This document shows, in pieces, positions 53,849 through 58,541 of a DNA stretch of 64,000 nucleotides. The notes beneath the pieces were generated by a model, which saw only the letters and a program-made list of their open reading frames with translations, was not told the DNA's origin and made no database searches. The stretch's first letter is position 1. Each line of letters begins with the position of its first letter. The stretch spans positions 1,054,001 to 1,118,000 of the forward strand of contig NZ_QXTF01000001.1 in the NCBI RefSeq assembly GCF_003583725.1. Reading direction: 5' to 3'. Source of the DNA: Sphingomonas edaphi. Lineage in GTDB: Bacteria > Pseudomonadota > Alphaproteobacteria > Sphingomonadales > Sphingomonadaceae. The translations under genes and the position numbers were made by a program.

Positions 53849-53893
53849 AAGGCCCGACGCTAGGTATGGCTTCCCTTGCGTCGGGCCTTTTTT
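53849..53893 (+). terminator. Intrinsic terminator of the EF-hand gene
   Basis: AAGGCCCGACGC (53849-53860) pairs perfectly with GCGTCGGGCCTT (53878-53889), and six T follow (53888-53893). It lies 22 bases after the EF-hand stop and separates that gene from the S46 pair. Confidence 0.92.
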
Positions 53894-53929
53894 CGTGCAG
53901 GTTCGCTGGCCGATCAGGAGGAGTATTCG

Positions 53930-55978
53930 ATGTCCCGTTCCGTGCGTCTGTTCGCGCTTGCTTCCGCCGCTTTGTCCCTACCGCTTGCCGCCGCCCGCGC
54001 CGACGAGGGCATGTGGACCTTCGATGCCTTCCCGGCCGCAAAGATGCGCGCCGACTATGGCTGGGCGCCCGACCAGGCTTGGCTCGACAAAGTGCGCAGC
54101 GCCGCGGTCCGCCTGACCGGCGGCTGCTCGGCCAGTTTCGTGTCGGACTCCGGCCTCATTCTCACCAACCATCACTGCGTCGCCAGCTGCATCGAGGACA
54201 ATTCGACTGCCAACAACAACATCCTGAAGAACGGCTTCACCGCCGCCGACCGCTCGCGCGAGCTTAAATGCGCCGGCCAGCAGGCGGAGGTGGTCACCTC
54301 GATCAAGGACGTGACCGCGCAAGTGAAGTCGGCGATCGGCACTGCCACCGGCGAAGCGGCGGTGAAAGCGCGCAGCGCCGCTGTCGCAGCTCTCGAATCC
54401 GGTGCCTGCCCCGACACCGCCAGGACCCGCTGCCAAGTCGTAAGCCTCTACGGCGGCGGCCAGTACAAGCTCTACAGCTACCGCAAATACTCCGACGTCC
54501 GCCTCGTCTGGGCGCCCGAGGCGCAGGCCGCGCAGTTCGGCGGCGATCCCGACAATTTCAACTTCCCGCGCTACTCGCTCGATGCCAGCTTCCTTCGCGC
54601 GTATGAAGACGGCAAGCCAGTCGCGACGCCGCAGCACCTCGAATGGAGTGCCCGCGCCCCGGTCGACGGCGAAGCAACGTTCGTGGTCGGCAACCCTGGC
54701 TCAACCCAGCGCCTGCTGACCAGTGAGCAGCTCGCCTTCCAGCGCGAATTGGCGCTGCCGATTACGCTTGCGACCTATTCGGAACTTCGCGGCCGGCTCA
54801 TCTCCGCAATGGCATCTGATCCCGCAAAGGAACGCGAAGCCGCGGAAACGCTCGGCGGCATCGAAAACAGCCTGAAAGTCTATATTGGACGCGTTAAGGC
54901 GCTCAACGATCCCGCATTCACTGGCCGCATCGCCGCCGCCGAAGCGCAGCTCAAGGCCAAATCGGCAGGCAATCCTGCCATCGGTAATCCCTGGGCCGAT
55001 GTCGCCAAGGCGATGGCGAGCTATCGCGACTTCTACATCGCCGACCGCTTCTCGCTGCCGCAGGGCGACCTTTTCGGCTATGCGATGACGCTCGTCCGGG
55101 CAGCCGCCGAACGCGGCAAGCCCAATGCCGAGCGCTTCCCTGGCTATTCGGATTCGGTACTCCCGCTGGTCCAGAAGCGCCTGCTCGACCAGCGGCCGAT
55201 CTACCCTTGGCTCGACCAGTTGATGATGGAATGGTCTCTATCGAAGTCGCGGGAGTATCTCGGCGCGGACGACCCGCAGACGAAGCTGCTGCTCGGCAAG
55301 GAATCACCGGAAGCGCTGTCCTCGCGGTTGGTGAACGGCACAAGGTTGGCCGATCCCGCCGTCCGCAAGGGGCTGTGGGACGGCGGCATCGCCGCGATCA
55401 ACGCCTCAACCGATCCGATGATCGTCTATGCACGAAACCTCGACGCCAACGACCGCGCGCTTCAGAAGCGTTTCGACGAGACGGTCGACGCGCCGCTGAC
55501 GGCCGCCCAGTCGAAGCTCGCCGACGCCCGCTTCGCCGCGTACGGCGACACACTCTATCCGGATGCGACCTTCACGCTGCGCATCAGCTACGGGAAAGTC
55601 GCGGGCTGGATGGAGCGTGGCGAGATGGTGCCGACCCGCACGACCCTTGGCGGCACCTTCGACCGCGCGACCGGCGCATCGCCCTTTGACCTGCCGCCGG
55701 CCTTTGCCGCAAATCGCTCGAAGATCGACGCGAAGACCACTTATGATTTCGTCACCACGAACGACATCATTGGAGGCAACTCGGGTTCGCCTGTAATCGA
55801 TCGCCAAAGTCGTGTGATCGGCGCCGCATTCGATGGCAACATCCACTCGCTCGGCGGCAATTACGGGTATGACGGCTCTCTCAACCGCACGGTTGTCGTC
55901 TCAACCGACGCGGTTCAGGAGGCGCTGGAGAAAATCTATCCGGCGCCGCACATCGTCGCCGAACTACGTCGCAAATAA
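53930..55978 (+). CDS. S46 dipeptidyl-peptidase, DPP7-like (Gly636)
   Basis: A 682-residue secreted dipeptidyl-peptidase that removes dipeptides from peptide N-termini. The signal peptide ends near AARA. The catalytic triad is His82 (LTNHHC), Asp in GGDPDNFNFPR and Ser618 (GGNSGSPV). The S1-pocket position 18 residues after the Ser is Gly636 (AAFDGN), as in DPP7, which prefers hydrophobic P1 residues. The ATG at 53930 follows AGGAGGAG. A similar-length paralogue follows 59 bases downstream. Confidence 0.92.
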   Translation: MSRSVRLFALASAALSLPLAAARADEGMWTFDAFPAAKMRADYGWAPDQAWLDKVRSAAVRLTGGCSASFVSDSGLILTNHHCVASCIEDNSTANNNILKNGFTAADRSRELKCAGQQAEVVTSIKDVTAQVKSAIGTATGEAAVKARSAAVAALESGACPDTARTRCQVVSLYGGGQYKLYSYRKYSDVRLVWAPEAQAAQFGGDPDNFNFPRYSLDASFLRAYEDGKPVATPQHLEWSARAPVDGEATFVVGNPGSTQRLLTSEQLAFQRELALPITLATYSELRGRLISAMASDPAKEREAAETLGGIENSLKVYIGRVKALNDPAFTGRIAAAEAQLKAKSAGNPAIGNPWADVAKAMASYRDFYIADRFSLPQGDLFGYAMTLVRAAAERGKPNAERFPGYSDSVLPLVQKRLLDQRPIYPWLDQLMMEWSLSKSREYLGADDPQTKLLLGKESPEALSSRLVNGTRLADPAVRKGLWDGGIAAINASTDPMIVYARNLDANDRALQKRFDETVDAPLTAAQSKLADARFAAYGDTLYPDATFTLRISYGKVAGWMERGEMVPTRTTLGGTFDRATGASPFDLPPAFAANRSKIDAKTTYDFVTTNDIIGGNSGSPVIDRQSRVIGAAFDGNIHSLGGNYGYDGSLNRTVVVSTDAVQEALEKIYPAPHIVAELRRK

Positions 55979-55984
55979 GACGCC

Positions 55985-56012
55985 GCGGGGTCCGACCACC
56001 ATCGGACCCCGC
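55985..56012 (+). other. Perfect hairpin between the two S46 genes
   Basis: GCGGGGTCCGA (55985-55995) and TCGGACCCCGC (56002-56012) form an 11-bp stem with a six-base loop, in the 59-base gap between the peptidase genes. Only CACCCGTTTCCC follows, not a U-run, so it may stabilise or attenuate the message rather than end it. Confidence 0.65.
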
Positions 56013-56037
56013 CACCCGTTTCCCAAGGAGTTCCCGA

Positions 56038-58086
56038 ATGTCCTCGCTTGTCCGCAACGCGTCCCTCCTCCTCGCAGCGGCCGCGCTGCCACTGGGCGCC
56101 GCGCGCGCCGACGAAGGAATGTGGACGTTCGACGCCTTCCCGGCGGCGAAGATGAAATCGGAATATGGCTGGGCCCCCGACCAGGCGTGGCTCGACCGCG
56201 CGCGCATGGCGGCAGTGCGTTTGACAGGCGGCTGCTCCGCCAGCTTCGTCTCGGCCAGCGGGCTGATCCTCACCAACCAGCATTGCGTCGCAGAGTGCCT
56301 TTCGGACCTGTCGACCCCCGGCAACGATCTCCTCGCCAAGGGCTTTGTCGCCGCGGTGCGTGCCGAAGAAAAGCAATGCCCCGGCCAGCAGGCGGAAATC
56401 GTGACGTCGATCAAGGACGCTTCCGCCCAAGTTAAATCCGCGATCGGCACTGCGTCTGGCGAAGCGGCGGTCAAGGCACGTACCGCGGCCATCGCAACGA
56501 TCGAGAAGGCCGCCTGCCCTGACACGGCCACCACGCGCTGTCAGGTCGTCACCCTTTACGGGGGCGGCCAGTACAAGCTCTACACCTATCGAAAGTATAG
56601 CGACGTCCGCATTGTCTGGGCGCCCGAAGATGCCGCGTCCAAGTTCGGCGGCGATCCCGACAATTATAATTTTCCGCGCTACGCTCTCGATGGCTCCTTC
56701 CTGCGGGCTTATGAGAACGGCCGCCCCGTCGCGACGCCCCAGCATCTCAAATGGACAGGCCGCGAGCCGGTCGAGGGCGAACCGGTATTCGTCGTTGGCA
56801 ATCCCGGCTCGACCCAGCGCATGCTGACGATGAGCCAGTTCGCCTATCAACGCGAGGTCAACCTGCCGGTCACGCAAGCGACACAGTCGGAGCTTCGCGG
56901 CCGACTGATCGAGGCGATCGGTGACGATCCCGAGCGCAAGCGGGAGGGAACCGACACGCTCTACGGAATCGAAAACAATCTAAAGCGCACCATCGGCCGG
57001 GTAAGAGCGCTCAACGATCCCGCATTTTACGCGGGCCTCGCCGCGCGCGAGGCGGATCTCAAAGCAAAGGTTGCTGGCAATCCCGCAATCGGCAATCCAT
57101 GGGCCGAGGTAGACAAGGCGATGACTGCCCTTCGCGCGATTGATGCTGAACGCCGTTTCTCCCAGCCGGACGGAGAACTCGTCGGCTATGCGCTGACACT
57201 GGTTCGTGCGGCGCAGGAGCGAGCCAAGCCTGACGCCGATCGCCTCCCCGGCTATAGCGACAGTGCACTGCCCCTGCTGCAGAAACAGATGCTCGATCTC
57301 AAGCCGATCAGCGGCTGGCTGGAAGAGCTGACCATGCGCTGGTCGCTCAGCAAGGCGCGCGAATATCTCGGCGCCGATCATTCCCAGACGAAGTTGTTGC
57401 TAGGCCGGGAATCCCCCGAAGATCTGGCGAAGCGCCTGGTCAGCGGCACGAAGTTGGCCGATCCGGCGATACGCAAGGCGCTATGGGACGGCGGACAGGC
57501 GGCGGTGGCCGCCTCAACCGACCCGATGATCGTCTACGCCCGCGCTATCGAGGCTAACGACCGCCGTCTTCAAAAGATCTATGACGAGCAGGTCGAGGGC
57601 CCCCTTTCCGCTGCCCGCTCGAAGCTCGCCGACGCGCGCTTCGCCGCTTACGGGGATAGCGTCTATCCCGACGCGACTTTCAGCCTGCGCATCACGTACG
57701 GTAAGGTCGGCGGCTGGATGGAAAATGGCACCAAGGTCGCGCACCGCACGACTTGGTCTGGCGCATTCGACCGCGCGACGGGGGCCGAGCCGTTCGCGCT
57801 TGCGTCGGCCATCCTCGCCAGTAAGTCGAAGCTGAATCTCAACGGCGCGATGGACATGGCCTACGCGACCGACACGATCGGCGGGAACAGCGGCTCACCC
57901 GTGATAGACCGCAACCTCAACGTAATCGGTGCCAACTTCGATCGCAATATCCACGGCCTGCGCAACGACTATGCCTATGATATGACAATGGCCCGGTCGA
58001 TTGGCGTGACGACTGCGGCGCTCGAACAGGCCCTGCGCACCGTCTATCCGGCACCGGCGCTGCTGAGGGAACTGTACGCCAAATAG
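56038..58086 (+). CDS. S46 dipeptidyl-peptidase, DPP11-like (Arg636)
   Basis: The 682-residue paralogue of the upstream gene, with a signal peptide (LLAAAALPLGAARA). Catalytic residues are His82 (LTNQHC), Asp in GGDPDNYNFPR and Ser618 (GGNSGSPV). The position 18 residues after the Ser is Arg636 (ANFDRN), the feature that in DPP11 makes the enzyme prefer acidic Asp/Glu at P1. So the pair probably has complementary specificities. ATG 56038 follows AAGGAG. The conserved lengths suggest a tandem duplication followed by divergence. Confidence 0.92.
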   Translation: MSSLVRNASLLLAAAALPLGAARADEGMWTFDAFPAAKMKSEYGWAPDQAWLDRARMAAVRLTGGCSASFVSASGLILTNQHCVAECLSDLSTPGNDLLAKGFVAAVRAEEKQCPGQQAEIVTSIKDASAQVKSAIGTASGEAAVKARTAAIATIEKAACPDTATTRCQVVTLYGGGQYKLYTYRKYSDVRIVWAPEDAASKFGGDPDNYNFPRYALDGSFLRAYENGRPVATPQHLKWTGREPVEGEPVFVVGNPGSTQRMLTMSQFAYQREVNLPVTQATQSELRGRLIEAIGDDPERKREGTDTLYGIENNLKRTIGRVRALNDPAFYAGLAAREADLKAKVAGNPAIGNPWAEVDKAMTALRAIDAERRFSQPDGELVGYALTLVRAAQERAKPDADRLPGYSDSALPLLQKQMLDLKPISGWLEELTMRWSLSKAREYLGADHSQTKLLLGRESPEDLAKRLVSGTKLADPAIRKALWDGGQAAVAASTDPMIVYARAIEANDRRLQKIYDEQVEGPLSAARSKLADARFAAYGDSVYPDATFSLRITYGKVGGWMENGTKVAHRTTWSGAFDRATGAEPFALASAILASKSKLNLNGAMDMAYATDTIGGNSGSPVIDRNLNVIGANFDRNIHGLRNDYAYDMTMARSIGVTTAALEQALRTVYPAPALLRELYAK

Positions 58087-58097
58087 GGAGCGCGGGG

Positions 58098-58541
58098 ATG
58101 GCGAAATATGAGCCGAAGACCAAGCCAACCGAGGTGAGTGTCGAGGACTTCATCACCGCCGTCCCCGATCCGCGCCGCCGCGAGGAAGCGATTGAGATCA
58201 ACGCCATGCTGCGCCGCGTCTCGGGCCATGAGCCGAAGATGTGGGGCCCCTCGATTATCGGCTACGGTGAATATCATTACCGCTACGACAGCGGCCATGA
58301 AGGCGATGCGCCGCGCATCGGCTTTTCTCCGCGGAAGGCGCAGCTAGTTCTTTATTTGATGGGCAATTATTGCGACCAGCAGGAGGAGGCGGACGCGCTG
58401 TTCGCCAAGCTCGGCAAGCACAGTATCGGCAAGTCCTGCCTCTACATCCCCAGACTCGCCAACGTCGATGCAGCCGTATTGGAGCAACTGGTGAAGATTA
58501 GCTGGGATTCGATGAACAAGCTCTACGCGCCGTCATCCTAG
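58098..58541 (+). CDS. DUF1801-family protein
   Basis: A 147-residue cytosolic protein with the DUF1801 (YdhG-like) motifs KMWGPSIIGYGEYHYRY, FSPRKAQLVLYLMG and KLGKHSIGKSCLYI. The family has no settled function. It begins 12 bases after the second S46 gene, and ends overlapping the cfa stop by nine bases on the other strand. The ATG is preceded by GGGAGCGCGGGG. Confidence 0.85.
   Translation: MAKYEPKTKPTEVSVEDFITAVPDPRRREEAIEINAMLRRVSGHEPKMWGPSIIGYGEYHYRYDSGHEGDAPRIGFSPRKAQLVLYLMGNYCDQQEEADALFAKLGKHSIGKSCLYIPRLANVDAAVLEQLVKISWDSMNKLYAPSS

Follow-up and report, generated by a model that had tools for sequence, protein, structure and literature searches.

A 64,000-nucleotide stretch of Sphingomonas edaphi DNA (contig NZ_QXTF01000001.1, positions 1,054,001 to 1,118,000; hereafter the window) contains two adjacent genes of the peptidase family S46, encoding proteins that closely resemble each other and carry different residues in the S1 pocket, which accommodates the P1 residue of the substrate. 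Copy 1 (53930..55978) and copy 2 (56038..58086) both lie on the forward strand, are separated by 59 bp, and consist of open reading frames of 682 codons without internal stops. Both deduced proteins match the Pfam family Peptidase_S46 (PF10459) over their full length, with 703 and 660 bits, respectively, at a cut-off of 22. Their gap-free alignment comprises 448 identical residues out of 658 (68%), the identity dropping to 0.38-0.48 over the last approximately 80 residues. His82, Asp218 and Ser618 are found in both copies and correspond by alignment to the catalytic triad His84-Asp222-Ser655 of SmDPP7 (numbering of PMC8041751). A preceding sequence-only reading of this DNA had described two S46 proteins of 682 residues with aligned His82 and Ser618, which the open reading frames, the alignment and the Pfam matches confirm. 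In copy 1, residues 1 to approximately 24 resemble a secretion signal, with a predicted mature start near the motif DEGMW, and copy 2 is laid out in the same way. Of the N-terminal amino clamp, formed in SmDPP7 by Asn213-Trp214-Asn328-Asp672, three residues are retained (N209, N313 and D635), and Trp214 is replaced by Phe210 in copy 1 and by Tyr210 in copy 2; in SmDPP7 this tryptophan also touches P1. No S46 gene beyond this pair was found in the genome (2.37 Mb, 99.99% complete).

The two copies were compared at the S1 positions defined in PMC6753110 and PMC8041751, using the Porphyromonas/Stenotrophomonas numbering. The corresponding stretch, residues 612-654 in both proteins, is encoded at 55763..55891 (+) in copy 1 (I613, A633, G636, S640, G643, N644 and T654) and at 57871..57999 (+) in copy 2 (T613, N633, R636, G640, R642, N643, D644 and S654). 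The S1 residues of PgDPP11 are H649, T650, T651, G652, N670, R673, G677, G680, D681 and S691 (PMC6753110), and those of SmDPP7 include D649, I650, T651, G652, A670, G673, S677, V678, S680, N681 and M691 (PMC8041751); Thr650 and Asn670 are kept in DPP11s, while DPP7s have Ile and Ala at these positions (PMC6753110). Copy 1 displays the DPP7 set (I650, A670, G673, S677, N681) and copy 2 that of PgDPP11 (T650, N670, R673, G677, D681, S691), agreeing with the latter also at position 674 and departing from it at 679-680, where Arg642 and Asn643 stand in place of Gly679-Gly680.

Position 673 is encoded by GGC (Gly636, 55835-55837, +) in copy 1 and by CGC (Arg636, 57943-57945, +) in copy 2. The assignment is anchored by an ungapped alignment of the copy-2 tail with the PgDPP11 structure 4xzy (query residues 4-51 on chain residues 647-694), in which Arg636 falls on 673. 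A further query, composed of typical DPP11 letters solely so that DPP11 chains would head the structure matches, returned PgDPP11 residues 643-716 (AFCATTHTTGGNSGSPVMNANGELIGLNFDRNWEGVGGDIQYLADYQRSI...), in which S655, T650, N670, R673, G677, G679, G680, D681 and S691 could be read. The top match of the copy-2 tail in the Protein Data Bank (PDB) was 4y06, an engineered G675R mutant of DAP BII. The sequence-only reading had placed the Gly/Arg difference 18 residues after the catalytic serine, at the equivalent of 673, and the alignment with 4xzy bears this out; its rule that 673 separates DPP7 (Gly) from DPP11 (Arg) stands for these two residues and omitted Ser673, which also marks DPP11s. The residue is nevertheless unsafe as a label when taken alone, since L084_5803 combines Ser673 with the DPP7-like pocket residues I650 and V670.

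The contrast extends beyond this single pair. In four species of the genus the residue at 673, Gly or Arg, goes consistently with the copy concerned and is thus not a chance difference. Comparison of five Arg-type with 24 sphingomonad Gly-type proteins revealed strictly fixed differences in 11 of 658 columns (210, 553, 610, 613, 633, 636, 640, 643, 652, 654 and 655), six of which (613, 633, 636, 640, 643 and 654) are the S1 positions 650, 670, 673, 677, 680 and 691. Six of the ten S1-lining positions of PgDPP11 therefore fall among the 11 fixed columns (hypergeometric p 9e-10), and a further fixed column, 210, is that of the clamp residue Trp214 of SmDPP7. The opposition of a DPP7-like and a DPP11-like pocket, previously drawn from one residue, holds at six to seven positions. 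A basic residue at 679/680 was present in 27 of 32 acid-type proteins and in none of the other types; position 679 is basic in the Ser-type alphaproteobacterial enzymes too, and Shewanella-type DPP11s have Lys680 instead. Two stricter rules were rejected: that every acid-type pocket has a basic 679/680, true of 27/27 proteins in a first set and broken by five xanthomonad DPP11s (S679 A680), and that T650 and N670 always accompany R/S673, broken by L211 and L213. In these two proteins T650 and N670 occur with Gly673, and Lys/Arg675 may supply the charge of a further acid-type pocket.

The AlphaFold2 model of copy 2 (pLDDT 88.6, pTM 0.89) includes an inserted alpha-helical domain (helices within residues 265-538) and matches S46 structures in the PDB with probability 1.00. 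Its best matches are DPP7 structures (TM-scores 0.78-0.86, 28% identity), those to DPP11 structures reaching 0.79 at 22% identity. Judged from the model, copy 2 joins a DPP11-like pocket to a body of DPP7 type.

The main phylogenetic tree was built without the pocket columns from S46 proteins of Pseudomonadota, the Bacteroidota DPP11s (Arg673 type) being compared by score and alignment only. In it, a very long branch (support 100) separates the canonical DPP7/DPP11 proteins from a second branch, marked by the motif GGDPDN[F/Y]xFPR[Y/F]. Both copies belong to the latter, nearly all members of which have Gly673, and show 31.1% (copy 1) and 29.3% (copy 2) identity to PmDAP BII. Copy 1 is consequently outside the canonical DPP7 clade, and scores 192 bits against the NCBIfam Dpp7 equivalog, whose cut-off is 1200. 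The Arg copies form one clade (100/100) nested in the genus's own Gly copies, and the approximately unbiased (AU) test rejects their grouping with the proteobacterial DPP11s (p 1e-39), the only DPP11s in the tree; there copy 2 has Gly-type and not DPP11 ancestry. The phylogeny and synteny uphold the earlier suggestion of a duplicated and then diverged set, and the same tree does not make the second gene a DPP11 by descent. Searches of the open-access literature, which did not extend to Rouf 2013 and Nemoto 2018 as possible sources of earlier phylogenies, brought up no study of sphingomonad S46 phylogeny or of convergence among DPP11s.

A second acid-type clade of the GGDPDN[F/Y] branch, with Ser673 and the motif GGSSGSP at the active site, is found among Caulobacteraceae. 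In Brevundimonas and related Caulobacteraceae the Ser673 copy stands in tandem with a Gly673 copy (L095, L099, L101, L102, L134-L137). In the tandem of L084, a Ser673 protein without T650 and N670 takes the place of the Gly673 copy, and another alphaproteobacterium (G811) has a tandem Gly673-Gly673 pair (L210). Some genus-mates of S. edaphi also harbor Caulobacteraceae Ser-type S46 genes at unrelated loci (L016, L022, L023); these are nested among Caulobacteraceae in the tree and were probably acquired by horizontal transfer. The AU test rejects a joint clade of Arg and Ser673 types (p 4e-5), and the combination T650+N670+R/S673 requires three changes on a 47-row tree. Because the Arg copies are joined neither with the Ser type nor with proteobacterial DPP11s, the tree indicates three or more origins of the acidic-P1-type pocket, the present one following a tandem duplication within a single genus; three is a minimum, as the DPP11s of xanthomonads and those of Shewanella type do not clearly form one group.

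The low identity of the two copies over their last approximately 80 residues could also be explained if recombination or gene conversion had brought a foreign pocket into copy 2, the donor being either a genuine DPP11 or a Ser673 gene of Caulobacteraceae type, and the Ser-type genes of the genus-mates would offer a source that has T650, N670, R679 and N680 in common with copy 2. Such a transfer is nevertheless very improbable: in a tree of the C-terminal tail with the pocket segment alone, the Arg copies fall among those of sphingomonad Gly type (support 98), apart from the Ser type, copy 2 has none of the Ser-type marks GGSSGSP, FDST and A681, and canonical DPP11s are only about 28% identical to it. 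Changes per site on the stem of the Arg clade amount to 0.13 in the body as against 0.58 in the last approximately 80 residues; on the Ser-clade stem the two values are 0.15 and 0.72.

Within the genus the S46 genes occupy a conserved locus (EF-hand gene, S46, optional second S46, CFA, RlmN). The Gly+Arg tandem occurs in four genomes (G000, G024, G025 and G027), the Arg copy without a Gly partner in G007 and in S. rhizophila KACC 19189 (L068), and the Gly copy alone in several other members. The Arg-type gene of L068 and the adjacent CFA synthase gene are frameshifted (~7413 and ~8330), by decay or by sequencing error. A profile of the Arg tail assigned approximately 185 bits to Arg copies and no more than 116 to Gly copies, and in the 399 Sphingomonadales and 385 Alphaproteobacteria genomes sampled it detected the Arg type in this genus alone. 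This restricted distribution speaks against the idea that both pockets are ancestral, left over from an older duplication whose bodies were homogenised by gene conversion while the pocket alone stayed distinct. The concentration of the copy differences in the pocket would fit such a history, which is nonetheless exceedingly doubtful, as the Arg copies of the four tandem species and of an Arg-only species form a single clade whose orthologues are about as far apart as the Gly ones, which argues against concerted evolution between the paralogues, and the C-terminal segment is likewise nested in sphingomonads.

DPP7s accept hydrophobic P1 residues, while DPP11s with Arg673 (Porphyromonas type) favour Asp and those with Ser673 (Shewanella type) Glu (PMC8048996). 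The reading we prefer, at a probability of about 0.78, is that a secreted S46 dipeptidyl peptidase was duplicated in tandem in one genus of small-genome sphingomonads, and that copy 1 would have retained the ancestral Gly673 pocket with a DPP7-like, hydrophobic P1 specificity. The S1 pocket of copy 2 would have been rebuilt by I650T, A670N, G673R, S677G, G680N and T691S, together with R679 and D681, convergently arriving from Gly-type sphingomonad enzymes at the residues of Porphyromonas-type DPP11 in most positions, and would cleave off dipeptides whose P1 residue is Asp or Glu. The second gene should therefore work like a DPP11 without being one phylogenetically. The pair would degrade extracellular or periplasmic peptides to complementary dipeptides, which could plausibly be imported by the product of the sole POT (PTR2) transporter gene; we infer both specificities, secretion and this import route from sequence. 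As a hint only, Sphingomonas yabuuchiae was isolated on both Met-Leu-ACA and Leu-Asp-ACA activity (PMC8886566).

Several observations weigh against this reading. Copies of the GGDPDN[F/Y] branch are only 27-31% identical to canonical DPP7s and DPP11s of Pseudomonadota, and because of this distance and the replacement of Trp214 by Phe210 or Tyr210 the DPP7/DPP11 specificity rules may not transfer exactly; no assayed or characterised member of the branch was found in the literature, and none has a solved structure. The exact placement of the Arg clade among the Gly copies of the genus has moderate support (80/95 and 92/98) and was not resolved in another tree, and the AU rejection of a DPP11 origin concerns the proteobacterial enzymes, those of Bacteroidota being compared by score and alignment. 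Purifying selection on both copies speaks in its favour, but the underlying ratios of nonsynonymous to synonymous substitution rates (0.09 for Arg and 0.13 for Gly orthologues of G000 and G025) come from synonymous sites near saturation. The pocket of copy 2 may also have changed without P1 becoming strictly acidic, the specificity being mixed or other (polar, Asn/Gln, or hydrophobic and acidic). Arg642 and Asn643 in place of Gly-Gly and Tyr210 in place of Trp would be compatible with this, as would the merely partial acidic activity gained by PgDPP7 through Gly666Arg alone (PMC8048996); we consider it unlikely, given that copy 2 possesses Thr650, Asn670, Gly677, Asp681 and Ser691 of PgDPP11 besides Arg673. 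Within the preferred acidic-P1 reading, it can be guessed that Arg642 (679) provides a second carboxylate contact and a wider acceptance of Asp and Glu.

A GC-rich perfect 11-bp stem-loop (55985..56012, +) lies between the two genes. Comparable intergenic stem-loops occur in three of the four tandem loci (the others at ~9757-9785 of L191 and ~3436-3467 of L193) and are absent in G025, where the gap is approximately 15 bp; the element lacks a T-run in the window and may modulate how the second gene is expressed. A terminator-like hairpin with a T-run is located 3' of the EF-hand gene (53851-53896), so the S46 pair is probably on its own transcript. A DUF1801 gene (58098-58541) begins 11 bp after copy 2 and is present at the locus in G000 and G025 only. 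An S46 gene is present in just 17 of 61 relatives, so that these enzymes are dispensable and frequently missing.

Among known systems, DPP7 (MEROPS S46.001; SmDPP7, PmDAP BII, PgDPP7) shares family, fold and triad with the pair and, with copy 1, also Ile650, Ala670, Gly673, Ser677 and Asn681; the pair differs from it by its approximately 29-31% identity to PmDAP BII, its position on a different deep branch and Phe/Tyr in place of Trp214. With Porphyromonas-type DPP11 (S46.002, Arg673), copy 2 has T650, N670, R673, N674, G677, D681 and S691 in common, but R679-N680 instead of G679-G680, a Gly-type alphaproteobacterial descent and an activity that is only predicted. The Shewanella/Stenotrophomonas-type DPP11 shares T650 and N670, but has Ser673 instead of Arg673 and lies on a different branch (AU p 1e-39). 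Closest in setting are the Ser673-type enzymes of Brevundimonas and Caulobacteraceae, which belong to the same S46 branch, form Gly+acid-type tandems and have T650, N670, R679, N680 and S691 as in copy 2, but differ in Ser673-Thr674, Ala681, the GGSSGSP motif and an independent origin (AU p 4e-5). On balance, the comparison favours the view that the Porphyromonas-type (R673 N674 G677 D681 S691) and Shewanella-type (S673 T674) pockets were both re-invented independently in this uncharacterised alphaproteobacterial branch, each beside a Gly-type tandem copy, and that S1 changes at 650, 670 and 673, often with 679/680 and 691, may represent a general switch from hydrophobic to acidic P1. The pair would constitute a natural replay of a change in protease specificity, in which adjacent, 68% identical enzymes belong to types split at 11 positions, six of them in S1. 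It predicts which residues, in addition to 673, full acidic specificity requires, in keeping with the partial effect of Gly666Arg in PgDPP7. For the naming of S46 enzymes it suggests that pocket type is separable from ancestry, and it opens a branch of the family for which the literature offered neither a solved structure nor an assayed member.

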